A stretch of 64,000 bases of DNA from contig JABJGH010000030.1 of assembly GCA_018662365.1 (NCBI GenBank), forward strand, positions 151,587-215,586. Direction: 5' to 3'. The number at the start of each line of letters is the position of its first letter. Position 1 is the stretch's first letter. The position numbers were made by a program, and so were the translations under genes. Origin of the DNA: Chloroflexota bacterium (lineage in GTDB: Bacteria; Chloroflexota; Anaerolineae; Anaerolineales; UBA11579). Positions 1-52,828 of this stretch are shown here, one piece after another. The notes under the pieces were generated by a model. The model was not told the DNA's origin, made no database searches, and saw only the letters and a program-made list of their open reading frames with translations.

Positions 1-1958
1 TTCAAGGTGAATTTGACGAAGATGATACAGATGATTGGTTACAAAGTATTAGAGAACAACAAGGGATTCTTGCCGAAGAGGAAACTGCTGAGGAAAAGTC
101 CGATACTAGTGATTTTTTGGAACGTATTCAAGACCTAAAAAATGAAGAAGAGGAATTGGAAGAAGATCCTCAATCCTTTTTAGATAGCATTGGAAATGAA
201 ACAGAGGCCGCCTCAGAATCAGAATTTTTAGACAGCTCAAAAATTGATGATACAAATTTAGACTGGTTATCAGGGATTTCCGACGAAAAACCTCCATCTT
301 TAACCTCAGAACTTCTGGATAACAGGCTAGGGGACTTGGACGAAGTTGATGAAAAAGAAAATGTTGAATTACCTGATTGGCTGATCAAGATTAAAAGTGG
401 GGAAGATTCAGAGGTGGATAAAGCGAAATCAAATGAGGAAAGTTTGGCGGGGGAAGATTCAGCCGAGACTGGTGATTGGATGGATCAATTCGCCGACCCT
501 GAAGAAACTGATTTGGCAAGACCAAAGATTGATTTTAACCTTGAAGAAGATTTAGCATGGATAAAGGAACAAGATGTTTTGGCGGGGGACACTGGTGAAA
601 TAAGCGCTGTTTTAGACATTTCGAAAAATCTGGAACCGAGTGTTGACCCGGATTGGTTATCTAGCATGGAGGAAAAATCACTTGCAGATGCCGAAATTGA
701 AATGCCAGACATTACGATCGAAGAAAGGCCCGTTGGCGAAAAAGGAAGTTTTGTGGCATCAGAGCGGGGGTCCGAACTGGCAACCGGAGAGGAAGATGGA
801 ATTTCAAGGGCAGAAGTCCCCAGTTGGTTGCAAGCTATTCGCCCAGAAGGGATGTTCGACCTCATCGGAGAGGATGGGAATTATATACTTGGTGAAGCTG
901 AGACAACTGGCCCTTTAGCGGGAATTGGAAATGTCTTACCAGCGGAACCGGGTAATGTTCTATTTAGCCTAAACAAAGTTCCAAAGGTAGATCTATATGT
1001 AAGTAAAACTCAACAGGTTCATATTTCTATATTGAATGATATGATTTCCGCCGAAGAGGAAACACCTTCCGTTAAAAGACGGTCGATAGCCATTCCTCAG
1101 CAAGTATTAAGGTGGATCATTGCTGGATTGCTCTATATCGCTGTAATGATTCCCGTTTTCAATGGGCAAATGAACGCTCCCTTGCCCACGGCCACCCATC
1201 CAGAAATCTCAGCAATGTCAGATATCGTTAATTCCCTGCCCCCTTCTTCACCCGTTCTGGTAGCCTTTGAATATCAACCTGGGCTTTCAGGTGAAATGGA
1301 GGCAGCCTCGGCAGCCGTCTTAGATCATCTCCTTATTCGGGGATCCGAATTGGTATTCATTTCTACCTCACCAACCGGTCCAGGACTAATCGAGCATTAT
1401 TTGGACACTTTGTTATCAAACCATACTTATATCGCCGATGAAAAATTCCCAAACTTAGGATATATATCCGGAGGAATAGCTGCATTATTAAACTTTGCAA
1501 ATAATCCTCAATCAACTGTGCCAAGGGTTTATTTGGAAAATACTGAAGGGCAAGATGTAAACGTCTGGACTGTTGAGCCGCTCAATCAGATCAAAAAAAT
1601 TCAAGACTTCGCCATGATTTTGGTCATCTCCGATGATCCCGATACAGCCAGATCATGGATTGAACAAGTTGAACCCTATCTTTCAGAAGATGATGTGCCC
1701 TTGACAATGGTAATTAGTGCGCAAGCTGAACCATTGATTTACCCGTATTATGACAATTCTCCCCGACAAGTTTCAGGTTTGGTTTCTGGCCTGTCAGGGG
1801 GAGCAATGTATGAAACAATTAGTGTTAGAGAGAACATCGCTAGTCGCTATTGGGATGGATTTGGAAATGGCCTAAGCGTCACAATAATCATTATCCTTTT
1901 TGGAGGAATTTTCAATTCCGTCAATAGCTGGCGAGAAAATAGGCAAAAGGTCCGATAA
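1..1958 (+). CDS. Membrane protein with repeated DWL-type motifs, 5' end missing
   Basis: I do not recognise a named family. The reading frame is already open at the left edge (frame from base 3 reads QGEFDEDDTDDWLQSI), so the ORF-track TTG at 117 is not the true start. The N-terminal half is very acidic and carries spaced short motifs built on W-hydrophobic: DDWLQSI, LDWLSGI, LPDWLIKI, GDWMDQF, LAWIKEQ, PDWLSSM and VPSWLQAI. A TM segment lies near nt 1108-1160 (WIIAGLLYIAVMIPVF), followed by an apparently extracytoplasmic domain and a second TM just before the stop (VTIIIILFGGIF). The acidic part is inferred to be a cytoplasmic docking region. It lies 13 bp before the next gene and probably shares its operon. 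Confidence 0.8.
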   Translation, partial: QGEFDEDDTDDWLQSIREQQGILAEEETAEEKSDTSDFLERIQDLKNEEEELEEDPQSFLDSIGNETEAASESEFLDSSKIDDTNLDWLSGISDEKPPSLTSELLDNRLGDLDEVDEKENVELPDWLIKIKSGEDSEVDKAKSNEESLAGEDSAETGDWMDQFADPEETDLARPKIDFNLEEDLAWIKEQDVLAGDTGEISAVLDISKNLEPSVDPDWLSSMEEKSLADAEIEMPDITIEERPVGEKGSFVASERGSELATGEEDGISRAEVPSWLQAIRPEGMFDLIGEDGNYILGEAETTGPLAGIGNVLPAEPGNVLFSLNKVPKVDLYVSKTQQVHISILNDMISAEEETPSVKRRSIAIPQQVLRWIIAGLLYIAVMIPVFNGQMNAPLPTATHPEISAMSDIVNSLPPSSPVLVAFEYQPGLSGEMEAASAAVLDHLLIRGSELVFISTSPTGPGLIEHYLDTLLSNHTYIADEKFPNLGYISGGIAALLNFANNPQSTVPRVYLENTEGQDVNVWTVEPLNQIKKIQDFAMILVISDDPDTARSWIEQVEPYLSEDDVPLTMVISAQAEPLIYPYYDNSPRQVSGLVSGLSGGAMYETISVRENIASRYWDGFGNGLSVTIIIILFGGIFNSVNSWRENRQKVR

Positions 1959-1971
1959 TGAGGAATAAATA

Positions 1972-2604
1972 ATGGAAATTATCGGTTTAGTTATTGCATC
2001 CGTCCTCACTATTTTAGTGTTGCTATATGCTTTTGGGGACAACGTATTCTTCCGAACTGCAATCCATGTATTTATTGGAGTGGCTGCTGGTTATGCAGGT
2101 GCAGTAGCAATTAGCAATGTGTTGATTCCGCAAATAATGAACCTTACATTTAGCGGTTTGGCGGTTCCCTTACTGTTGATTGGCATGCTTCTAATGAAAA
2201 TCTCACCAAAAACTTCAATGTTAGGGAATCCAGCATCTGCATTCTTGGTCGGTGTTGGCGCAGCGATTGCTGTTGGGGGAGCAATCCAAGGGACTTTGCT
2301 GCCACAAATAAATGGCGCTTCAAATTATTTCAATTCTGGACTTATTCAGGGAATCCTTATCCTGATCGGTGCAACAACAACATTGATCTCTTTCCACTTT
2401 AGTACAAAAATTTCACCTAACCAAATTCCGGAACGCAACCTGATCATGGAATGGATATCGAGTGTTGGGAAAGTCTTTATTGCCATCACTTTCGGGGTCA
2501 TTTTTGCAGGGGTTTACAGCTCTGCAATGACGGCTTTAGTTGAACGATTTGTATTTCTATCAGATGTCTTTACCCAAATAATGACAATTGCTGGAGTCCA
2601 ATGA
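1972..2604 (+). CDS. Six-TM integral membrane protein, unknown function
   Basis: A 210-residue, almost wholly hydrophobic protein with about six predicted membrane spans (for example IIGLVIASVLTILVLLYAF near the start and VFIAITFGVIFAGVYSSAM near the end). I see no catalytic or transporter signature. It starts 13 bp after the upstream membrane protein and its TGA overlaps the ATG of the MutL-like gene (ATGA), so translation of the two is probably coupled. The context suggests a membrane partner of the ASKHA protein. No function can be assigned from the sequence. Confidence 0.8.
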   Translation: MEIIGLVIASVLTILVLLYAFGDNVFFRTAIHVFIGVAAGYAGAVAISNVLIPQIMNLTFSGLAVPLLLIGMLLMKISPKTSMLGNPASAFLVGVGAAIAVGGAIQGTLLPQINGASNYFNSGLIQGILILIGATTTLISFHFSTKISPNQIPERNLIMEWISSVGKVFIAITFGVIFAGVYSSAMTALVERFVFLSDVFTQIMTIAGVQ

Positions 2605-4406
2605 CAGAAAATTTAGAAGATATCTACCCCAATATCTCTGAGATATCAGATGTAAAACCCAGTTCTTTGGTTTCAATTGAAGTTGGAACAATAAATACGC
2701 GCGCCTCCTTATTTGACATGGTTGAAGGAAGATATCGATTTTTAGCGGCTGGAACCGCCCCCACAACGATAAACCCGCCCTTTTCTGATATCAGTGAAGG
2801 AGTTCGGTTAGCTATCGCAAATTTAACAGCTATTTCCGGGCGATCAATTACAAATATTAATGACGATTTGATCATTCCAAGTGATCCTGATGGATATGGA
2901 GTCGATCATCTCGCAGCTAGCTATTCGGTTGGAAATCCGCTTAAAACGATCGTGATCGGGTTGCTCGATAAAGTATCTCTTGAAAGTGCCGTTCATTTAG
3001 CCCATACTGTGTATACAGATATCATTGATACGATCAGCATCAGTGAACATGGTCAATCCAATAAACAAATAAACACAATCGTGCATAGCAGACCTGATTT
3101 GGTAATTCTAGCGGGAGGAACCAATGGTGGGGCGTCAAAGACCGTGCTAAAAATGGTTAATGCCCTCAGAATGGCAATATATTTGATTCCGGAAGGATTT
3201 AGACCTACCATTTTATTCGTTGGAAACGAAGAACTTGCAGAAAAAGTACAAAAATTATTTAGTCCAATAACTGAAATCCACACTGCCCCCAATATTCGTC
3301 CAAGTTTGTCAAAAGAACAACTGGACGTAGCTCAATCAAAATTATCGGAACTATTTCAAACGTTCCATAATAAACGAACTTTGGGGTTTCAGGATCTAAA
3401 CGATTATTCCGGTGGGTTTATGGTCCCAGCGTCTAAATCTTTTGGCCGGGTTATTCGCTTTTTCAGCAAGATTGTTCGCACACCCGATCAACGAGGGGTA
3501 TTGGGAATTGATTTAGGGTCTGATTCCACAACAGTAGCTGCTGCCTTCAATGGAGACCTTCGACTTCGGGTTGTCTCAAAATTGGGCATTGGAACAGGTC
3601 TCGAAAGCATTTTAAAATCTAGCCAGCTAAAAGATATCACTCGCTGGCTATCGAAAGAAATCCCACCTTCGGAAGTGCTAGATTATATTCAAAACAAGAT
3701 CATCCGCCCGGGAACCTTACCCGTCACTGATGAAGATCTGGAAATTGAGCAAGCTTTAGCGAGGGAAATCATTCAACAAGCCCTCAAAAAAGCGAATATG
3801 AATTTCCCTAAAAATATTAGGCGCGTTGAAAAAGGCACCTTACCCAATTTTGACCCAATCCTGGTAAGCGGCAGCACATTAGGACTTGCACCTAGTGCTG
3901 CCCAAAGCTTGCTAATGATTTTGGACGCTCTACAACCTATGGGGATTCAGCAGATTATTTTAGATAAAAACAGTTTAGCTATCGCCCTTGGCGCCGCTAT
4001 ACCGATTAACCCAACTTTAGTTTCCCAACTGTTGTTAGATCCAATTGCCTTCCTTAACCTGGGTTTTGTAGTCTCCCCTGCAGGCAAGGCCAAATTGGGC
4101 AGCCCTGTTTTGAAAGTCCGAATTGATTATGAATCTGGCCATTCCAACATTGTCACCGTTGACCAGGGAGAAATTCAAAAAATTCCTCTTGCATTGGGGC
4201 AACGGGCCAGAATATACCTGGATCCACTTCAACGTACAAATTTGGGTAGTGGCCCCGGAAAACGTCTACCCCCACATGCGGTAGTAGGTGGCCCCTTTGG
4301 CCTGATCATTGATGCCCGTGGAAGACCGATCAAATTACCCAATAATTCAAAGAAACGACGAGCACTATTGAGAAAGTGGGCAGAATCGTTGGAAAAGAAA
4401 GATTAG
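2601..4406 (+). CDS. MutL-like (glutamate mutase L family) ASKHA-fold protein
   Basis: This 601-residue protein resembles the MutL family first named from the glutamate mutase cluster, part of the actin/Hsp70/sugar-kinase (ASKHA) superfamily. Two phosphate-1-like loops are visible: SIEVGTINTRASLFD near residue 25 and GVLGIDLGSDSTTVAAAF near residue 300. LVILAGGTNGG lies near residue 168 and LVSGSTLGLAPS near residue 420. No glutamate mutase subunit genes are adjacent, so a mutase role is doubtful. The neighbours are membrane proteins and a surface protein, so a nucleotide-dependent envelope function is possible. The ATG overlaps the upstream stop by 4 bp. Confidence 0.75.
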   Translation: MTENLEDIYPNISEISDVKPSSLVSIEVGTINTRASLFDMVEGRYRFLAAGTAPTTINPPFSDISEGVRLAIANLTAISGRSITNINDDLIIPSDPDGYGVDHLAASYSVGNPLKTIVIGLLDKVSLESAVHLAHTVYTDIIDTISISEHGQSNKQINTIVHSRPDLVILAGGTNGGASKTVLKMVNALRMAIYLIPEGFRPTILFVGNEELAEKVQKLFSPITEIHTAPNIRPSLSKEQLDVAQSKLSELFQTFHNKRTLGFQDLNDYSGGFMVPASKSFGRVIRFFSKIVRTPDQRGVLGIDLGSDSTTVAAAFNGDLRLRVVSKLGIGTGLESILKSSQLKDITRWLSKEIPPSEVLDYIQNKIIRPGTLPVTDEDLEIEQALAREIIQQALKKANMNFPKNIRRVEKGTLPNFDPILVSGSTLGLAPSAAQSLLMILDALQPMGIQQIILDKNSLAIALGAAIPINPTLVSQLLLDPIAFLNLGFVVSPAGKAKLGSPVLKVRIDYESGHSNIVTVDQGEIQKIPLALGQRARIYLDPLQRTNLGSGPGKRLPPHAVVGGPFGLIIDARGRPIKLPNNSKKRRALLRKWAESLEKKD

Positions 4407-4444
4407 TTGGCATATCTCTTGCACATTATTGAATAAGGATAATT

Positions 4445-5497
4445 ATGCAATCTACCGTTACACATATTCTACCTCTAGCTAAAATTCATCGTTCTCGGAT
4501 GCTTCCCATCCCGGGAACCGTTTTAGTGCGCGCCGGGCAAGATGTTGTCGCCACAGATCTTATCGCAGAGGTAAATTTGAAACCAGAGCATATGCTTTTG
4601 GATATTTCCAATGGCTTAGGGGTACCGCCAGAAAAAACAAATGAGTACATAATGCGTGAAATTGGTGAAGATGTGGCTCAGGATGGTATTGTTGCTCAAT
4701 GGAAAAATGGCAGTCGGGTGGTGAGGGCACCTAAAGCCGGCAAGGTGGTTGCCATTAGTGGCGGCAAATTGCTACTCCAAACCGAAAATGAACCCTATCA
4801 AGTCTTGGCAGGTATGACGGGTACAGTTAGCGAGGTTAAGGCAGATTTTGGTGCAGAGATCGAAACCTCAGGGGCTTGGATTCAAGGGGTCTGGGGAAAT
4901 GACAAAATTTCCATGGGAAAATTGACCATTTTAGCTAGTCGACCAGACCATATATTTGAATTTGAGGATACCGATCAAGATCAAAAAGATTTTGTCCTAT
5001 TTGCTGGATATTGCAGTAATCCTCAAGTTTTGGAAACTTGTGAAAGCAATCAGGTGGCAGGGTTGATTTTAGGGAGCATGGCAACTCAATTGATCCCAAT
5101 GGCACTGGAAATGTCTTTCCCAATTATTGTTATTGAAGGATTTGGGTTATTAGATGTCAATGATACGGCTTATAAACTTCTGTCCACAAGTGCTGGGCGA
5201 GAGGTTTCGATCAACTCTATGCCAAATAACCCCTTTAATGGTGAACGCCCAGAAATCACTATTCCACTAGAAAGTAGTGGAAACCCCACAACCCCCCTGG
5301 ATATGCAATTTCTTGAGCCAGGGATTCAGGTTCGAATATTACGAGCTCCATATATGGGAAAAGTGGGCATTATAAATAACCTATTACCGGGTATGACGCG
5401 ATTCCCCAGCGGCTTAAGAACATCCGGTGCTGAAATTGCCCTTGGCAATAACGAAAAAGTCGTTGTTCCGCTGGCGAACATAGAAGTTCTGGGGTAA
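4445..5497 (+). CDS. Unknown protein with barrel-sandwich-like N-terminus and KOW-like C-terminus
   Basis: I do not recognise a named family for this 350-residue protein. The first 125 residues have short beta-rich stretches (GTVLVRAGQDVVATDLIAEV, then VVRAPKAGKVVAISGGKLLL) like the barrel-sandwich hybrid folds of biotinyl domains and RNA polymerase beta'. The C-terminus (QVRILRAPYMGKVGIINNL, then VVVPLANIEVLG) resembles a KOW-type small barrel. There is no signal peptide or TM segment, so it is probably cytoplasmic. The start follows AAGGATAATT. It lies 38 bp after the MutL-like gene and probably belongs to the same operon. Confidence 0.65.
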   Translation: MQSTVTHILPLAKIHRSRMLPIPGTVLVRAGQDVVATDLIAEVNLKPEHMLLDISNGLGVPPEKTNEYIMREIGEDVAQDGIVAQWKNGSRVVRAPKAGKVVAISGGKLLLQTENEPYQVLAGMTGTVSEVKADFGAEIETSGAWIQGVWGNDKISMGKLTILASRPDHIFEFEDTDQDQKDFVLFAGYCSNPQVLETCESNQVAGLILGSMATQLIPMALEMSFPIIVIEGFGLLDVNDTAYKLLSTSAGREVSINSMPNNPFNGERPEITIPLESSGNPTTPLDMQFLEPGIQVRILRAPYMGKVGIINNLLPGMTRFPSGLRTSGAEIALGNNEKVVVPLANIEVLG

Positions 5498-5521
5498 AAC
5501 TAGAAATACGGATGTGGAAAG

Positions 5522-5564
5522 AACCTAAAAAAGGTTTGGAACACAGCAAGCTAAAAAAAGCTTG
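5522..5564 (+). promoter_or_regulatory. Two short A-loop hairpins in the leader of the LPDTG gene
   Basis: Two adjacent inverted repeats with A-only loops are visible: AACCT-AAAAA-AGGTT (5522-5536) and CAAGCT-AAAAAA-AGCTTG (5547-5564). They sit just before the AAGGAGAAAGG ribosome binding site of the LPDTG gene. Neither has a U tract, so they are not ordinary terminators. A role in mRNA processing or translation is only a guess. Confidence 0.35.
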
Positions 5565-5588
5565 TAAATCTGAAGGAGAAAGGTAATT

Positions 5589-6146
5589 ATGCTAGATAAT
5601 TTCGATGATCTGGATATCCCAGAAGAAGATGAAGTTGCAGATAGTGGAGGCAACCGTTCTTTTATCATGGTTGCAGGTGGAATAGGAGCTTTGATCGTCG
5701 TTGCCTTGTTAATGATGGCGGCCTATATTTTCTTTTTCCGACCCGATCCTAATGCCGCTCAACAAGCAGCCGATGAAACTCAAGCTGCCCAACAAGCGAC
5801 TACCGACGCTCTCAATCAATCATTGACAGAAACTGCAGATGCATTGGCAATTTTGCCTACGATGACCAATACACCGGTTCCGGTTATTGAAGAGGTAGCA
5901 CCTGCTGAAGATGTTGTTGAAGAGCCCACCCAAGATCCTCGTACGGCCACAGTTCAAGCCTTGCTTACCCAAGCCTCTATGGCGCAAACACAAGCGGTGG
6001 TTTCAACGCTCACCCCTACCCCTGAAGGTGCGTTACCGGATACAGGGTTTATGGACGATTTTGGCGCACCAGGACTAGCTGCCCTTGGATTAGTATTGAT
6101 ATTGATCATTTTCATGGCACGGCGATTACGCCAAGCCAATATCTAA
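5589..6146 (+). CDS. LPDTG-motif surface protein (probable sortase substrate)
   Basis: A 185-residue protein with an acidic N-terminus, a hydrophobic segment (FIMVAGGIGALIVVALLMMAAYIFFF, about residues 25-50), a low-complexity Gln/Ala/Thr/Pro stalk, and a C-terminal cell-wall sorting signal. The signal is LPDTG near residue 149, then a hydrophobic stretch (APGLAALGLVLILIIFMA) and a basic tail RRLRQANI. A sortase gene lies at 51.9 kb. The N-terminal segment lacks an obvious cleavage site and may stay in the membrane. It is the last gene of this block and is followed by a strong terminator. The substrate call is firm; the function of the stalk is unknown. Confidence 0.75.
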   Translation: MLDNFDDLDIPEEDEVADSGGNRSFIMVAGGIGALIVVALLMMAAYIFFFRPDPNAAQQAADETQAAQQATTDALNQSLTETADALAILPTMTNTPVPVIEEVAPAEDVVEEPTQDPRTATVQALLTQASMAQTQAVVSTLTPTPEGALPDTGFMDDFGAPGLAALGLVLILIIFMARRLRQANI

Positions 6147-6162
6147 AACAATTATTAAACCT

Positions 6163-6196
6163 AAAACAGGCTGGAATTTAATTCCAGCCTGTTTTT
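6163..6196. terminator. Bidirectional rho-independent terminator
   Basis: A perfect 15-bp stem (AAAACAGGCTGGAAT / ATTCCAGCCTGTTTT) with a 3-nt loop is flanked by A and T runs. It lies between the converging LPDTG gene and the DUF952 gene and can serve both strands. Confidence 0.9.
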
Positions 6197-6212: not shown

Positions 6213-6548
6213 TTATTGCGGGTAGGAATATAATCCCGAGGTCCCCGGTAAAAGCACTTCTATATGTACCACTGCATCCAAATTTAATGGCCCATAGACA
6301 TGGGGAAATATATCTCCATCTGACTCCTCCCATTTTAATTCTGGGATGATCTTATCTTCTTCGGTATGTAATAACACCAAATGGGGAAGGTCTTTATAAA
6401 AAGTGTTGACAACTTTTTCCACTTGCTCTGCACGAGAGAAATGAATAAACCCCTCGGTTTCAACAGATGGGGGAGAATAATCTCCTTGCTTTTGCGCTTC
6501 TCTCCAATCTTCTATTTGACAAACATGATAAATTTTTTCTGGTCTCAT
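6213..6548 (-). CDS. DUF952 family protein
   Basis: This 111-residue protein matches the pattern of DUF952: an N-terminal IYHVCQIEDW, then GFIHFSRAEQVEKVVNTFY, LVLLHTE, and a late FPHVYGPLNLDAV. DUF952 proteins are small, often annotated as glutathione S-transferase-related, with no firmly established reaction. It is the last gene of the pan/coa run, its ATG overlaps the coaBC stop by 4 bp, and it ends at the bidirectional terminator. No role in CoA synthesis should be assumed from position alone. Confidence 0.8.
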   Translation of the reverse strand: MRPEKIYHVCQIEDWREAQKQGDYSPPSVETEGFIHFSRAEQVEKVVNTFYKDLPHLVLLHTEEDKIIPELKWEESDGDIFPHVYGPLNLDAVVHIEVLLPGTSGLYSYPQ

Positions 6549-7759
6549 TTTAGGATTTCTTCCACCTTTTCAAGAATTGCTATTGCCACCTGTTCTTTGG
6601 TCAATAAAGGCAAGGCTTCTTTACTTCCATCTGCAGAGATTATCGTTACCCGATTGGTATCGACCTCAAACCCTGCATCTTTGGCACTAATATCATTTGC
6701 AACAATAAAATCTAACCCCTTCTCTAAGAGTTTTTTCTCAGCATTTTCTATTACATCCTTACTTTCTGCTGCAAAACCAATGATCACCTTTGGTTTCCCT
6801 GACTTCTTCTTTTCTTCAGAAACATTCTTCAATATATCTTGGGTTGCTTTGAGTTTGATTTCAGGGATTCCCGAAGATTTTTTGATCTTTTCAGAGGAAT
6901 TTTTTATGGGGCGATAATCGGCAACCGCGGCAGCCATGATCAAAACATCCGCATTTGCTGTGTGGGAAATAACGGCCGCAGACATCTCTTCGGCACTACG
7001 CACATCCGTCCTCTCCACACCTATCGGTGTAGGTAATAAATTCGGTCCTGAGATCAACCTAACTTCTGCACCCATGTCGATGGCTACTTGAGCGATTGCA
7101 AATCCTTGTTTCCCTGACGAACGATTCGTAATAAATCTAACTGGGTCAATCGCCTCTTGAGTTCCCCCCGCAGTGACTAAGATTTTCTTGCCCGTCAGGG
7201 GACCTGATCTGCTAAATAAATATCTGATATTGCCAAATAAGTCGCTTGGCTCTGTCATTCGTCCAACTGCTCGCATGCCTGAGGCTAAATGCCCAGCCTC
7301 TGGTCCAATGATTGTCACCTTTCGAGATTTCAAAATTTCGAGATTTGCCTGTGTTGCAGGATGACTATACATTCCTCCATCCATCGCTGGTGCAATTAAA
7401 ATAGGGCATTCAGCTGCCAGGGCAGTCAAGGTCAACAAGTTTCCTGCTTCCCCATGAACCATTTTTGCCATGGTATTAGCGGTGACCGGCGCGATTACAA
7501 AAAGATCGGCTTCTTTACCCAAACTAATATGAACCACATGCCCTTGGTCCCCCCACAGATCGGCATCCACATAAGCCTTTCTTCCCGTAACGGATTGAAA
7601 TGTTAGGAGGGATACAAACGCCGTAGCCGCTTTGGTGAGAATCACATCCACCTCTGCCCCTGCCTGAGTAAGTTTCGACGCCAGATCAGCAGATTTATAA
7701 GCAGCGATTGAGCCGGTCACACCGAGTAAAATTCGTTTCTTTTTTATTGGATGGATCAT
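6545..7759 (-). CDS. coaBC: Bifunctional phosphopantothenoylcysteine decarboxylase / phosphopantothenate-cysteine ligase
   Basis: CoaBC joins cysteine to 4'-phosphopantothenate and then decarboxylates the product to 4'-phosphopantetheine in CoA synthesis. The FMN decarboxylase half starts with GVTGSIAAYKSADLASKL and has GHVVHISLG (catalytic His region) and NTMAKMVHGEAGNLL. The ligase half starts near residue 190 with ILVTAGGTQEAIDPVRFITNRSSGKQG. At 404 aa the length is usual for CoaBC. The motif normally written PAMNxxMW reads PAMDGGMYSHPATQ, an Asn-to-Asp change. It is the penultimate gene of the pan/coa run, 89 bp downstream of the small membrane protein gene. Confidence 0.95.
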   Translation of the reverse strand: MIHPIKKKRILLGVTGSIAAYKSADLASKLTQAGAEVDVILTKAATAFVSLLTFQSVTGRKAYVDADLWGDQGHVVHISLGKEADLFVIAPVTANTMAKMVHGEAGNLLTLTALAAECPILIAPAMDGGMYSHPATQANLEILKSRKVTIIGPEAGHLASGMRAVGRMTEPSDLFGNIRYLFSRSGPLTGKKILVTAGGTQEAIDPVRFITNRSSGKQGFAIAQVAIDMGAEVRLISGPNLLPTPIGVERTDVRSAEEMSAAVISHTANADVLIMAAAVADYRPIKNSSEKIKKSSGIPEIKLKATQDILKNVSEEKKKSGKPKVIIGFAAESKDVIENAEKKLLEKGLDFIVANDISAKDAGFEVDTNRVTIISADGSKEALPLLTKEQVAIAILEKVEEILK

Positions 7760-7848
7760 AATCTTTCTCTTTTAGTATTCGCTAATTACCCTTTTTAATA
7801 TTACCTCAACCGATCAAACAACCACATCAATGATTGTTGGAAACACTC

Positions 7849-8277
7849 TTATGAGTTTATTTCTTTCTCCCAAACAGACCAAATCTTTTTGGAAACTTCC
7901 TCAATGCGATCATAAAATTGAGGGTTTAGCGAGCCATATCCTCGCCAACTGAAGAACTCCTCGTCAATTATCTTAAAAACATCCAAACTGTTTTTGCATT
8001 CTCCCGACCTTGAAGTGATCGAAAGGGATTCATTTAGATAATCTTCATCGAGAACTACTTTTATGAACCAGGGATTAATCTCTCGAAGACTGGATAACAC
8101 AATGTCATAAACCCGGCCATAAGATGCTTCGATTCCAGAAGATCGAAAATTCTTTTCATCGATATAGGTGTAGCTTTTGGTCTCTTTTGACTTCCCATAA
8201 AATTGAACAATAATTGTGGTCAGGCCTGCTACGAGCAATACCGCCGCTACAAGCCAAACAAACATTGTACCTGTCAT
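7849..8277 (-). CDS. Single-TM protein of unknown function
   Basis: Not recognised. The 142-residue protein has one N-terminal TM segment (FVWLVAAVLLVAGLTTIIVQF) and then a soluble domain with several aromatic residues (SSLREINPWFIKVVLDEDY, EEFFSWRGYGSL) and a C-terminal helix. Its ATG overlaps the upstream methyltransferase stop by 4 bp, so expression is probably coupled. Nothing in it points to CoA metabolism. Confidence 0.65.
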   Translation of the reverse strand: MTGTMFVWLVAAVLLVAGLTTIIVQFYGKSKETKSYTYIDEKNFRSSGIEASYGRVYDIVLSSLREINPWFIKVVLDEDYLNESLSITSRSGECKNSLDVFKIIDEEFFSWRGYGSLNPQFYDRIEEVSKKIWSVWEKEINS

Positions 8278-8894
8278 GATTTCTTTACCCCTTTGGCATA
8301 TCGAACCAGCCCGGTCCCCATTTTTAATGTGGTTTCTGTCATAGTTAGACCTATATCCCTAAATATTTTTTTGAGATCGTCTTCAGACCATCGAAAACAT
8401 TCTTCAGCCTGCTGCCCATAACCCAATAAACTCTCACGAGCCACCCCAACAAGCTCCGAATCAACGGCTAGTTTTTCGGCAGCAGCAAGACTCATCTGCT
8501 CTGAAGGATTGAGCATACACAACTGACCCTCAGGTTTCAATATTCGCACAATCGTTTGCATCGCTACAAATGGGTCAGGGAGCAAATAAAACAAATTGCT
8601 CACAGTAATCATATCAAAACTCTTTTCCCGAAAAGGCATTTTGATAATATCCGCAATGAGTACATCTGGGTGCAAGGGGTGGGCGAACATTTCAGGGTCC
8701 ACATCACTCCCAAATGCAGAGATGCCATCCTTTGAAAAATAAGAGGGCAAGAGTCCCGGGCCGCAACCCACATCCAATACTTTTTGTCCTGGTTTGGGCG
8801 CACACCAGCACGCAAAAGAAGCCAGCATCCTTCCCCACCCAGTTTCGGTTTGGAGCTCTAAAAAATATTCCGAGAAATTTTCCATATCGTGCAT
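8274..8894 (-). CDS. Class I SAM-dependent methyltransferase
   Basis: This 206-residue protein has the methyltransferase-11 pattern: motif I VLDVGCGPGLLPSYF near residue 40, an acidic loop FGSDVDPEMF, and MITVSNLFYLLPDP near residue 96. The substrate is unknown. Of two nearby ATGs (MHDME), the first is used by the ORF track and the second, four codons in, is equally possible. The gene lies 28 bp after coaX within the pan/coa run and overlaps the next gene by 4 bp. Confidence 0.85.
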   Translation of the reverse strand: MHDMENFSEYFLELQTETGWGRMLASFACWCAPKPGQKVLDVGCGPGLLPSYFSKDGISAFGSDVDPEMFAHPLHPDVLIADIIKMPFREKSFDMITVSNLFYLLPDPFVAMQTIVRILKPEGQLCMLNPSEQMSLAAAEKLAVDSELVGVARESLLGYGQQAEECFRWSEDDLKKIFRDIGLTMTETTLKMGTGLVRYAKGVKKS

Positions 8895-8922
8895 TATTTT
8901 TTTGCCTACCCAAAGATGTTGA

Positions 8923-9687
8923 TCATTGGTTTAATGCCCAAATGATCCTCAACCCATCTAAGGTTAGCCATGGGGCAATAATCTCTAAGACATCGGTTTC
9001 AATAGCAACTACCTCGGCTAAACCACCGGTTGCGATAACTTTCATTTCCGGTCCAAGCTCAGCTTTAAATCTAGATACCATGCCTTCGACCAATCCCACA
9101 TAGCCAAATAATAGTCCAGATTGGAGGGCATGGGTAGTGTTTCTACCGATCACAGATGGTGGCCGAGTGAGATCTACACGAGAGAGTTTTGCGGCTCGAG
9201 AGAACAAAGCCTCAGCCGCGATCCCGATCCCGGGAGATATTGCCCCACCCAAATAATCACCCTCTGCAGAAATTGCGTCAAAGGTTGTGCCTGTCCCAAA
9301 ATCGACCACGCAGGCTGGCCCTCCATAAAGTCGCTGGACCGCAACACAATCCACAATCCGGTCTGCTCCAACTGCTTTGGGATCCTCATACCGGATATTG
9401 ACGCCTGTTTTTGTGCCAGCGTCTACCACCAGAACTTCCTTATTAAAATAACGCTGGCAGGCCTCTTCAATTTTTCCAGTTAAGGGAGGTACTACAGAAG
9501 CCATGCATATCCCTTCGATATCACTAGGCGAAATGCCTGCATGTTGGAGCATAGCAAAAAAACGAATCCCATATTCATCAGGCATTTGTTCGTGTTTTGT
9601 TGCTAGGCGCCACCGAGGTCCAAGTTCATCACCATCGTATAATCCCAAAGTAATATTCGTATTTCCAATATCTATGGTTAGTAACAT
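8923..9687 (-). CDS. coaX: Type III pantothenate kinase
   Basis: CoaX phosphorylates pantothenate, the first committed step of CoA synthesis, in the cytoplasm. The 254-residue length is typical. ASKHA-fold motifs are present: LTIDIGNTNITLGLYDGDE at the start, AVGADRIVD near residue 105, VVDFGTGTTFDAIS near residue 128, and GAISPGIGI near residue 147. A good ribosome binding site (GGAGAAATAAAA) precedes the ATG. It lies 2 bp after panC, so pantothenate synthesis and activation are linked in one transcript. Confidence 0.95.
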   Translation of the reverse strand: MLLTIDIGNTNITLGLYDGDELGPRWRLATKHEQMPDEYGIRFFAMLQHAGISPSDIEGICMASVVPPLTGKIEEACQRYFNKEVLVVDAGTKTGVNIRYEDPKAVGADRIVDCVAVQRLYGGPACVVDFGTGTTFDAISAEGDYLGGAISPGIGIAAEALFSRAAKLSRVDLTRPPSVIGRNTTHALQSGLLFGYVGLVEGMVSRFKAELGPEMKVIATGGLAEVVAIETDVLEIIAPWLTLDGLRIIWALNQ

Positions 9688-9689
9688 TT

Positions 9690-10526
9690 TTATTTCTCCA
9701 AAATTAAATTGTCAATCAATCGTGTTTTCCCGATATATATTGCCAATGAGATCAAAGCTTCACTGGCGATCACTTCTAATTCTTGTAAATTGCTCGGATC
9801 TGCACAAGACATATAATCAATACTTGCTAGGGGTTGCGCACTGATTATCTCTTTCATCAATAACCTTAGTGCATCCCCATTTCGTTCTCCCCCGTCATAA
9901 GCAATTTTAGCGGCCTGAAGAGCCTGATACAAAACAACCGAAGCATCTCGTTCTTCTGGGTTGAGGTTCACATTCCTGCTCGACATTGCTAATCCATCAT
10001 TTTCTCGTGCAATTGGCACAGCCACAATTTCAATAGGGAAATTTAAATCTCGAGTCATTTGTTTGATCACTGCCACTTGCTGCGCATCTTTTTGTCCAAA
10101 AAAAGCGATTTGCGGTTGAACTGCAGTGAACAATTTACTCACCACTGTGGCTACACCTTTAAAATGGCCCGGGCGTTTTTCCCCTTCCAAAGGATTTGCG
10201 ATTTCGCCAACTTCAACCCAAGTTTGGAAACCAGGGGGATACATCACCTCGTTTGTCGGGATCCAAACCAGATCTACTCCCTCATTTTCCAAAAGGGCAA
10301 GATCCCGCTCAACATCTCGCGGATAGACCTCCAGATCAGTTTCCTGATTAAACTGAGTGGGATTCACAAATATGCTCACCACCACCGAAGTTGCTCTTTT
10401 TTTCGCGGCTCTAACCAATGAGAGGTGGCCTTCATGCAAAAATCCCATTGTAGGCACAATCGCTACAGGCTCATCCAAAGATTCGCGAGCTTGCCAAAGA
10501 TCATTCAAAGATTCAACCCTAATCAT
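9690..10526 (-). CDS. panC: Pantothenate synthetase
   Basis: PanC condenses pantoate and beta-alanine with ATP. The HIGH-like nucleotide site is seen in PTMGFLHEGHLSLV, followed by FGQKDAQQVAVIKQMTRDL and the KMSKS-equivalent MSSRN. The ORF track starts 19 codons upstream at 10583. I chose the ATG at 10526 (MIRVESLNDL) because homology begins there and it overlaps the panE stop by only 8 bp, as in the rest of this operon. The resulting 278 residues are usual for PanC. Confidence 0.93.
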   Translation of the reverse strand: MIRVESLNDLWQARESLDEPVAIVPTMGFLHEGHLSLVRAAKKRATSVVVSIFVNPTQFNQETDLEVYPRDVERDLALLENEGVDLVWIPTNEVMYPPGFQTWVEVGEIANPLEGEKRPGHFKGVATVVSKLFTAVQPQIAFFGQKDAQQVAVIKQMTRDLNFPIEIVAVPIARENDGLAMSSRNVNLNPEERDASVVLYQALQAAKIAYDGGERNGDALRLLMKEIISAQPLASIDYMSCADPSNLQELEVIASEALISLAIYIGKTRLIDNLILEK

Positions 10527-11469
10527 TCGATTTCCCTTTATACTCTTTTTCGATTCCCATATTAAGTCCTTCAATGATCGCATTAATCAATTTCCATACC
10601 GTATAATTTACAGGCGTTTGCACCCCTAACTCCTTACCTAAACGAACAACTTCCCCACAGATCGCATCGATTTCTGTCGGCGCGCCCCGTTGAATATCCT
10701 GATACATCGAAGAATGGTTATTTTCCGTGCCTTTTGCCACTTTTTCCGCTGCCGCAACAGGATTCTTGAAAGATAGTTGTATTCCCTGTGCAGAGGCTAA
10801 AGAAGCAACTTCCTTGGCAAGATCAGCAGACAACTGGCGGGCAGAAGCTCTGCTAAGTAAAGAACCATTCGACACCTTCAAAAGAGCGGTGATCGGGTTG
10901 ATCGCAGCATTGACCACCAACTTGCTCCAAATTAATGTGTCGGTGTTTTTGATCGTTTCCAGTTTAAAACCTGCCGATTTAAGATATTCCCTTATTGGTT
11001 CTAGGCGAGGATGTTCCCCCAAGGAAATCAACCCCTGCCCTCCCGGGCGCACTCGACCAGAACTGAGCAATGTGGCACCCGTTGTAGTAACCCCTAATGC
11101 CACTCTTTCTTCTCCAAGAATAGATTCCAATATCTCTCGATTACCCAAACCATTCTGTAAGGTCACGGCAATCCCATCATCGGACAAACATTTTTTCAAT
11201 TGCTTTGCTGCTCGAGCTGTTTGCCAAGATTTAACCAACACCAAAGCATACTTCATGCCTACACAATCGGAGCTATCATCAACGACCCTGATCGGGTATG
11301 CTTTTTGTTTACCGTCAGGCTGAACGAGCGTCACGCCATATAAACGCAATGCGGCCAATCCTTCTTTCCAATTGCCCAACATCGTCACAGGAATACCTGT
11401 TGCAGATATCTTTGCTGCAAAAAGACTGGCCAATGCTCCCGTGCCTACGATCAATATCCCTTCAGTCAT
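10519..11469 (-). CDS. panE: 2-dehydropantoate 2-reductase
   Basis: PanE reduces ketopantoate to pantoate with NADPH. The 316-residue protein has an N-terminal Rossmann nucleotide motif (ILIVGTGALASLFAAKI, a variant of GxGAxG), a TLQNGLGNRE segment near residue 102, and the conserved WSKLVVNAAINPITALL block near residue 185 that includes the family's catalytic Lys. Its ATG overlaps the panB stop by one base (TAATG), so the two are translationally coupled. The fit to family and context is strong. Confidence 0.92.
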   Translation of the reverse strand: MTEGILIVGTGALASLFAAKISATGIPVTMLGNWKEGLAALRLYGVTLVQPDGKQKAYPIRVVDDSSDCVGMKYALVLVKSWQTARAAKQLKKCLSDDGIAVTLQNGLGNREILESILGEERVALGVTTTGATLLSSGRVRPGGQGLISLGEHPRLEPIREYLKSAGFKLETIKNTDTLIWSKLVVNAAINPITALLKVSNGSLLSRASARQLSADLAKEVASLASAQGIQLSFKNPVAAAEKVAKGTENNHSSMYQDIQRGAPTEIDAICGEVVRLGKELGVQTPVNYTVWKLINAIIEGLNMGIEKEYKGKSND

Positions 11470-12353
11470 TATTTATCTAGCTCAGCCATTAACAGCTCCC
11501 ACTCTTCATCTTTCATGAAAATGCTGTGAGCATCCGATGGGAAATCTTTTTGGTTCACGTCCTGCCGAAAAGCGATCATTGCTTCCTGCATCACATTATG
11601 AATATTGGCATATTGCTTTACAAATTTTGGGGTGAATTTGTCAAATTGGCCGACCAGATCGTGGGTAACCAAAACCTGACCATCACATCCAACCCCCGCA
11701 CCTATACCAATCGTCGGCACTCGTAATTTGCTTGAAATTAATTCAGATAATTGGGCCGGAACAGCCTCTAGGACGATTCCGAATACACCCTCCTCCTCCA
11801 AGATTAGGGCATCCTCGACCAATATCTTAGCCTGGTCGGCCTTTTTGCCTTGGGCTCTAAATCCCCCCATTGTGTTCACGCTTTGAGGGGTAAGCCCAAT
11901 ATGTCCCATTACAGGAATACCTGCCAAGACCATTTTCTGAATTGCCTCTGCCCTCTCTCTGCCCCCTTCAAGCTTTACTGCATCCATCCCTGCCTCTTGT
12001 AAAAATCGCCCCGCATTTTCGACTGCCGTCCAAACATCGCTTTGGTAAGACATGAAGGGCATGTCTCCGATCAATAGCGGATTCTTTGCTCCCCGAGACA
12101 CAGCCTTGCAATGATGGAGCATGTCCTCCATCGTGACTGGCAAAGTGTTCTCATATCCGAGCACGACCATCCCCAAGGAATCGCCGACCAAGATCGAATC
12201 GATCTCAGCCTTATCTATTGCCATCGCTGTGGGATAATCATATGCGGTCAACATCGTGATCGCTTCACCGCGTTTCTTTTTTAAACGAAAGCTGCGGGTG
12301 GTGATTTTTTTGCGTATTTCGCCCCCATATTTTTTTAATGGTGTGGTCGTCAT
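11469..12353 (-). CDS. panB: 3-methyl-2-oxobutanoate hydroxymethyltransferase
   Basis: PanB transfers a hydroxymethyl group from methylene-THF to ketoisovalerate to give ketopantoate. Family motifs are clear: ITMLTAYDYPTAMAIDKA, ILVGDSLGMVVLGYENTLPV near residue 55, and VKLEGG and GHIGLTPQ in the middle. The 294-residue length includes about 15 extra N-terminal residues. It is first in the pan/coa operon, downstream of a good promoter and a structured leader. panD is not in the window. Confidence 0.95.
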   Translation of the reverse strand: MTTTPLKKYGGEIRKKITTRSFRLKKKRGEAITMLTAYDYPTAMAIDKAEIDSILVGDSLGMVVLGYENTLPVTMEDMLHHCKAVSRGAKNPLLIGDMPFMSYQSDVWTAVENAGRFLQEAGMDAVKLEGGRERAEAIQKMVLAGIPVMGHIGLTPQSVNTMGGFRAQGKKADQAKILVEDALILEEEGVFGIVLEAVPAQLSELISSKLRVPTIGIGAGVGCDGQVLVTHDLVGQFDKFTPKFVKQYANIHNVMQEAMIAFRQDVNQKDFPSDAHSIFMKDEEWELLMAELDK

Positions 12354-51910: not shown

Positions 51911-52828
51911 ATGCCAAAGAAAAAACGCCCTGAAGATCTAAGCGAACGCGAATTGCATCGTTTATTAATTCAAAAACGTCGCAAATCCCGTCGAAAACGA
52001 TTGGATGATTTCAGGCGCAGCGGTCGCATTGTGGAAATCAATCCGATCCCCGAAACAAAAAATCAAGAAACTTGGGGGAGCATCGATCTTGAAGAAGATG
52101 GGGAATTCAACCTGGATGAAGGCAAGCAATCAAAAAGAAAAAAAGGGATGGACCGAGCTTTGCTTTTTGTCGAGATCATCGCTATCGTTGGACTAGTATT
52201 CATCCTATTCAATGGAATGGATATCCTCCGAAAACTAAATCAAGAGTTTGCCGCTGCGCTCGAACAACCTGCCCTAACCCCCACCCCCCTAATCACCGCA
52301 ATAGTGCTACCCTCCGGACACACCTCCCCAAATTCACTTGGTGGCGCTCAATTTAATATGGCGGAAATTCCGGAACATCTCCAGCCCATCGTTCAGACAT
52401 ATTTCAATAATTTGGCAATCCCCACCCCAAGCCCCGAGCAAGCAACTCGCATCGAAATTCCCGCAATCAATGTAAATCAGGTAATTGTGCAAGGAGATGG
52501 CTGGGAGCAATTAAAGAAAGGGGTAGGTCAACATATTGGCACGGCCAACCCCGGTGAAATTGGCAATTTGGTTCTTTCGGCCCATAATGATATTTTTGGG
52601 GAAATTTTTCGACATTTAGACCGTTTACAAGAAGGAGACCAGATCATCATCCACAGCAATATCCGCTCCTACACCTACGTGATCAATATCGAGACCCAGA
52701 TCGTGGATCCCGCATTTGTGCAAGTAATGGATCCCACCCTAGATCCAAGCCTAACCCTGATATCTTGCTATCCCTACTTGATCAATAATGAACGTATCAT
52801 TGTCAAAGCGACCTTGGTGGACGGCTAG
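51911..52828 (+). CDS. Sortase (transpeptidase)
   Basis: A 305-residue membrane-anchored sortase that would cleave an LPxTG-type signal and attach the protein to the envelope. It has a long basic cytoplasmic N-terminus, a TM segment (LLFVEIIAIVGLVFILFNGM), a linker and a C-terminal sortase fold: RIEIPAINVNQVIVQGDGWE, catalytic His in LVLSAHNDIFGEIF, catalytic Cys in LTLISCYPY and Arg in NNERIIVKATLV. The class is not certain. Its likely substrate, the LPDTG protein, is about 46 kb away. It follows the polysaccharide genes. Confidence 0.9.
   Translation: MPKKKRPEDLSERELHRLLIQKRRKSRRKRLDDFRRSGRIVEINPIPETKNQETWGSIDLEEDGEFNLDEGKQSKRKKGMDRALLFVEIIAIVGLVFILFNGMDILRKLNQEFAAALEQPALTPTPLITAIVLPSGHTSPNSLGGAQFNMAEIPEHLQPIVQTYFNNLAIPTPSPEQATRIEIPAINVNQVIVQGDGWEQLKKGVGQHIGTANPGEIGNLVLSAHNDIFGEIFRHLDRLQEGDQIIIHSNIRSYTYVINIETQIVDPAFVQVMDPTLDPSLTLISCYPYLINNERIIVKATLVDG

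Follow-up and report, generated by a model that had tools for sequence, protein, structure and literature searches.

Why should a relative of the glutamate mutase protein MutL be encoded among membrane and surface proteins, with no glutamate mutase genes around it? The question arises at the left end of a 64,000-nucleotide stretch of DNA from a Chloroflexota bacterium (hereafter the window). A preliminary description, made from the letters alone, saw there five consecutive plus-strand genes ending at one strong terminator and proposed them as an undescribed system with a possible ATP-driven role in envelope assembly. Here we ask how far this gene set extends, what its proteins resemble, how widely the set is conserved, and which of several functional readings the evidence favors.

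The operon extends upstream of the window

All five genes are real, and their operon-like spacing (successively 13 nt, a 4-nt overlap, 38 nt and 91 nt) leads to a strong intrinsic terminator on the same strand (stem at 6163–6195; −22.4 kcal/mol, z = −7.6 relative to shuffled sequences). As a complete operon, however, the five fall short: the first open reading frame is open at the window edge, and the upstream sequence of the home genome places its start and three further genes before base 1. The full operon comprises eight genes, H, A, B, C, D, E, F and G, in which H overlaps A, and A overlaps B, by 4 bases; the five genes in the window are the tail of this larger, uncharacterized set. Upstream of the window, H encodes 83 amino acids (L002:10737-10988), A a 250-residue protein and B a 206-residue protein with five or six transmembrane (TM) segments. 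The plus-strand genes in the window are C (3–1958), the 3' part of a gene whose start lies 213 bases upstream of base 1 and whose full product has 723 residues; D (1972–2604), for a 210-residue polytopic membrane protein; E (2601–4406), for the 601-residue MutL-like protein; F (4445–5497), for its 350-residue partner; and G (5589–6146), for a 185-residue protein with two TM segments.

A cluster for coenzyme A biosynthesis faces the operon from the minus strand (6213–12353). It contains a gene for a DUF952 protein and then coaBC (DFP/Flavoprotein by Pfam), while coaX, panC, panE and panB are likely assignments made by eye.

E belongs to a long branch of the MutL/GlmL family

The initial assignment of E as a MutL-like protein with two ASKHA phosphate loops was confirmed by its match to the Pfam MutL family (PF13941; 2.1e-55, with 188.7 bits where the cut-off is 27) and by alignment, which placed the phosphate-1 motif EVGTINT at residues 27–33 (2679–2699) and the phosphate-2 motif DLGSDSTT at residues 304–311 (3510–3533). 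Asp304 of phosphate-2 is present in 63 of the 77 long forms, and most members of the E family keep both ATP-binding motifs. The sequence makes it likely that E descends from the GlmL/MutL family and acts as an ATPase of the Hsp70/actin-like (ASKHA) class.

E shares with GlmL/MutL (NF040745, TIGR01319, PF13941) an ASKHA core of about 450 residues and both phosphate motifs, but differs from it in adding a C-terminal domain of about 115 residues, in having F as a partner and in the absence of mutase genes. The additional domain (4032–4403) carries a DARGRP motif, is found in the long forms and not in the short ones, and contains an Asp571 and an Arg573 that are invariant in all 77 long forms; a profile search detected no relative of it in the PDB. 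Viral contigs likewise held no relative of this domain, and an origin from phage was rejected.

Scores and phylogeny separate the two types. Against the two curated NCBIfam GlmL models, whose cut-offs are 475 and 204 bits, E scores only 83 and 55 bits, while the same models give 225 and 159 bits at locus L140 and 600 and 473 bits for the short MutL of locus L118. In a tree of 84 sequences, five short MutLs split from the other 79, E among them, with a local support of 0.992. Three of these five adjoin mutE, two of the three also mutS, and a short-type MutL also occurs at two other mutE loci, so that MutE is found with short MutL at L118, L119, L121, L212 and L213. One genome (G253) has both kinds, a long E in an A–F operon (L120) and a short MutL beside MutE (L121).

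Predicted barrel, swivel-like and KOW domains in F

Sequence hints of KOW-like and biotinyl/lipoyl-like character had led to the description of F as a barrel/KOW-like protein. Its confident AlphaFold2 model (pLDDT 92.6, pTM 0.73) contains both of these parts and a third, alpha/beta part between them. The N-terminal part resembles biotinyl/NqrA-type barrels by weak sequence profiles, and the C-terminal, KOW/SH3-like part resembles the KOW domains of NusG/Spt5-type proteins in Foldseek. The middle domain gave local Foldseek matches to the swivelling folds of UPF0107 (TMt 0.63) and RraA (0.54), with non-significant E-values of about 2e-3 to 4e-3; the dehydratase reactivase itself is not among the 50 matches listed for F. 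The best PDB match of the F profile, a lysozyme entry, was judged to be due to chance, as it rests on a short WGNG-type motif.

A to D, a proposed membrane module

A is a member of DUF6754 (PF20539; 1.5e-32, 113.2 bits against a gathering score of 27), a family without known function whose entry does not describe the surrounding cassette and on which our literature search found no paper. Its model (pLDDT 93.7) consists of a helix (residues 3–25), a Rossmann-like domain and a second helix (216–249), and it had no PDB match at E 0.001. Positive-inside counts of lysine and arginine, 0.82 before the first TM segment and 4.06 after it, place the Rossmann-like domain in the cytoplasm. C has a different layout, with an acidic tail, a TM segment at 440–458, an extracytoplasmic domain and a second TM segment at 691–709. 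The corresponding counts are 3.26 before the first segment and 3.49 after the second; the tail is presumably cytoplasmic, and by these topology statistics the alpha/beta-like domain is predicted to face outside. B and D each have about six TM segments and show no detectable relationship to each other, and D matches no Pfam family. Profile searches of the PDB with E, A, C and the C-terminal domain of E returned nothing useful; C matched a glutamate racemase over 67 residues (E 4e-4).

When the operon proteins were compared with one another by profile, A and C aligned end to end and collinearly over about 200 columns, weakly (P 0.004–0.02), while alignments of the other pairs reached about 26 columns at most. 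A and C may thus be inverted paralogues, which we regard as a hint and no more.

The tail of C is a variable addition. In this protein it carries seven WL motifs, compared with a mean of 0.3 in shuffled sequences, and in Anaerolineae, Chloroflexia and some relatives, where C has gained the acidic tail, the motifs number up to 51; elsewhere C is the membrane domain alone (about 280 amino acids), and the motifs were not found outside Chloroflexota. In Chloroflexota lineages without A–D, zinc-ribbon proteins with scattered P-x-W-L/M motifs are encoded directly upstream of E-F (L094:6981-8801, L100:10569-12356, L102:3435-5507). These possibly replace the tail of C, though they did not stand out when the motifs were counted more strictly. 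Large N-terminal extensions were seen in two DUF6754 proteins, one with HEAT repeats (L178:7583-10738) and one with a weak Ig-like match (L168:6039-7379).

Gene order is conserved across phyla and domains

A system of this kind was expected to keep its gene order in relatives. Profiles made from the operon proteins were used to survey gene order. The order A-B-C-D is kept in 18/18 Anaerolineae cases with room to see it, in 11 of 12 other Chloroflexota and in 38 of 41 cases outside the phylum; the exceptions examined seem to stem from overlapping ORF calls or from rearranged repeats. F lies directly 3' of E in all 21 Anaerolineae, in 26 of 38 other Chloroflexota (a set that includes short, mutase-type MutLs), in all 11 non-Chloroflexota and in 19 of the 20 paralogue regions fetched. 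Conservation thus held in the phylum and beyond it, with the order persisting at about 20–30% identity in many phyla of both bacteria and archaea. Among 150 Anaerolineae genomes, long E and A occur together in 70, E alone in 13, A without a strong E in 3 and neither in 64 (Fisher p 3e-25, kinship ignored).

A scan of GTDB genomes, mostly metagenome-assembled and assigned to groups by their record titles, detected DUF6754 in Bacillota, Latescibacterota, Planctomycetota, Hydrothermota, WOR-3, Elusimicrobia, Eisenbacteria, Deltaproteobacteria and Oligoflexia, and among archaea in Bathyarchaeota, Methanomethylicota (Culexarchaeia) and Thermococci. Long E is present in 21 of 23 non-Chloroflexota genomes that have A, mostly without E-F beside A; in these genomes E and F are usually neighbors, often at a second locus. 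Five Chloroflexia genomes with A–E and no F beside E encode F elsewhere. Several Chloroflexota lineages have E-F without A–D (L094, L100–L104, L107–L111 and others), and E-F is the more portable pair.

Copy number also varies. Most organisms have a single copy, while three Bacillota genomes of 2–4 Mb (G627, G629, G635) have up to eight or nine paralogues of E or F, and some F copies in them contain an insertion (about 450–500 aa). Two A-B-C-D cassettes stand side by side at L168, L177, L187, L190, L191, L202, L203 and L204. At L187, from Bathyarchaeota, they are divergent and the locus also holds two E-F pairs; at L204, from WOR-3, an ARPP-1 gene (PF20208; L204:8664-9578) lies between them. 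At three Bacillota loci (L278, L282 and L286), E-F pairs lie inside gene clusters for FtsX/MacB-type ABC exporters, and a gene for a solute-binding protein is also found near E-F in Bacillota. The FtsX/MacB-like permeases at these loci (L278/G627, L282/G635, L286/G630) share a Cys-rich tail (CAECGRCGGF, CANCGRCGGF, CAQCGLCGGF).

G is a lineage-specific addition

That G is a sortase substrate is consistent with its C-terminus, an LPDTG motif followed by a TM segment and a pair of arginines, which passes the NCBIfam LPXTG_anchor model (TIGR01167; 17.2 bits against 15.9), as in sortase-anchored LPXTG proteins, and with the presence of sortase genes in the genome. A sortase domain (PF04203, E 3.8e-29) is encoded outside the operon at 52451–52819 on the plus strand of the window (G000:C6:204037-204405) and is a possible partner of G; more sortases are encoded on other contigs. 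Unlike sortase-anchored LPXTG proteins, G may retain a non-cleaved N-terminal TM segment (residues 32–50), preceded by an acidic tail. Its place in the core of the system did not stand: G is missing at L050 and L051, its motif varies across relatives (LPxTG, VPDTG, APTG, LPRSG), and in our sample it is confined to Chloroflexota. G is the least conserved part of the operon, a lineage-specific extra. Since neither G nor the WL motifs occur outside Chloroflexota, neither can be essential.

A tentative two-module machine

From gene content, gene order, co-occurrence, the domain architecture of E, the predicted folds of F and A and the topology statistics, all of which were computed, a two-module arrangement can be drawn. 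Module 1, E-F, would be cytosolic and consist of the ASKHA ATPase and its partner with the barrel, the swivelling alpha/beta domain and the KOW domain; Module 2, A-B-C-D with the small protein H, would lie in the membrane, with the domain of A inside and that of C outside. Our preferred reading, which we infer from comparative genomics and hold only tentatively, is that E-F works on the A–D complex as a reactivase-like module driven by ATP. Binding and hydrolysis of ATP by E would swing F, physically associated with it, and the swung F would contact the A–D complex to remodel, load or reset it. In Anaerolineae and Chloroflexia, the WL motifs on the cytoplasmic tail of C may dock E-F, much as the tail of PilN docks PilM.

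The model for such a cycle is the glycerol/diol dehydratase reactivase (GdrA/DdrA; PDB 1NBW), whose alpha subunit combines ATPase and swivelling domains and undergoes a chaperone-like ATP cycle (PMC7674605). E-F would share the combination of an ASKHA ATPase with a swivelling domain, but divides it between two polypeptides, includes a barrel and a KOW domain as well, is accompanied by a membrane module of four genes, and has no dehydratase among its annotated neighbors. We propose remodelling or loading of A–D because membrane proteins, in place of a B12 enzyme, are the partners here. The location of E-F inside exporter clusters at the three Bacillota loci also suggests work on membrane machines, and its occurrence without A–D in several Chloroflexota lineages suggests that the client may differ.

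The same exporter clusters also fit another reading. A–D may be a transport complex or channel with ligand-binding Rossmann-like domains inside (A) and outside (C), energized or regulated by the E-F ATPase and duplicated for different substrates, a possibility we rate below remodelling but not far from it. The tandem cassettes (those at L168, L177, L190, L191, L202, L203 and L204), the many E or F copies of single Bacillota genomes, the neighboring solute-binding protein and the TM content of B and D all speak for this reading; against it, no matches to transporter families were obtained with B, C or D, and most organisms have a single copy. Somewhat less likely still is a scaffold like PilM/GspL, in which a membrane-docked, actin-like E would organize how surface proteins such as G are exported or assembled. 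This comes closest to the envelope-assembly role first suggested, which becomes one possibility beside a reactivase-like ATPase and a transporter. The analogy would rest on the fold class of E and on the long cytoplasmic tail of C with its repeated WL motifs, PilM binding a short cytoplasmic part of PilN (PMC4471445), to which the LPDTG motif of G and the sortase of the genome can be added. The PilM-PilN-PilO/GspL systems of type IV pili and type II secretion resemble this operon in encoding an actin-like cytosolic protein alongside bitopic membrane proteins that have a tail in the cytoplasm, but here B and D are polytopic, the operon proteins have no Pfam matches to PilN, PilO, pilin or secretin, and A–F reaches archaea, unlike G and the WL repeats, which are lineage-specific.

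Two further readings take the neighboring genes to be unrelated. In the first, E reactivates a B12-dependent mutase; in its favor are the membership of E in the GlmL/MutL family and the listing of glutamate mutase among enzymes served by ATP-dependent reactivases (PMC10356863). We consider this improbable, and for glutamate mutase largely refuted by the scores, the tree and the mutE search: E lies far below the GlmL cut-offs that the short form of L118 passes, the absence of mutase genes around E noted at the outset extends to the home genome, in which mutE (PF06368) has no match, and full-length mutE occurs in only 3 of 150 relatives. Mutase subunits in relatives, which the preliminary description had named as evidence against a separate system, go with the short MutL. 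A chance neighborhood of unrelated genes, for which nothing was found, is refuted by an order kept at such low identity in many phyla of bacteria and archaea. Anti-phage defense was rejected as well, A–F having no match to any PADLOC family.

Implications

The A–F set exists and is conserved, its gene order being the same from Chloroflexota to Bacillota, Planctomycetes and archaea, from which we conclude that the set probably encodes a conserved machine of the cell envelope. That it was previously undescribed, as first proposed, agrees with a literature search that found nothing tying MutL to membrane operons of Anaerolineae, although subscription papers may lie outside its scope. Tentatively, this would be a membrane machine that predates several bacterial and archaeal phyla or has been exchanged among them, in which an ATPase and a swivelling partner drive a four-protein complex whose Rossmann-like domains face inward in A and outward in C.

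For the MutL/GlmL family, long E adds a second, membrane-linked branch, and genes annotated as "glutamate mutase L" in these organisms are therefore probably misnamed. Chloroflexales and Herpetosiphonaceae, which both have the system, include cultured members, so its function can be addressed by experiment. Within the conserved set, Pfam families exist only for A and E, and the recurrence of one gene order, mostly without family models, in Chloroflexota, Bacillota, Planctomycetes, WOR-3, Elusimicrobia and archaea makes it likely that these genes do something basic in the cell envelope.
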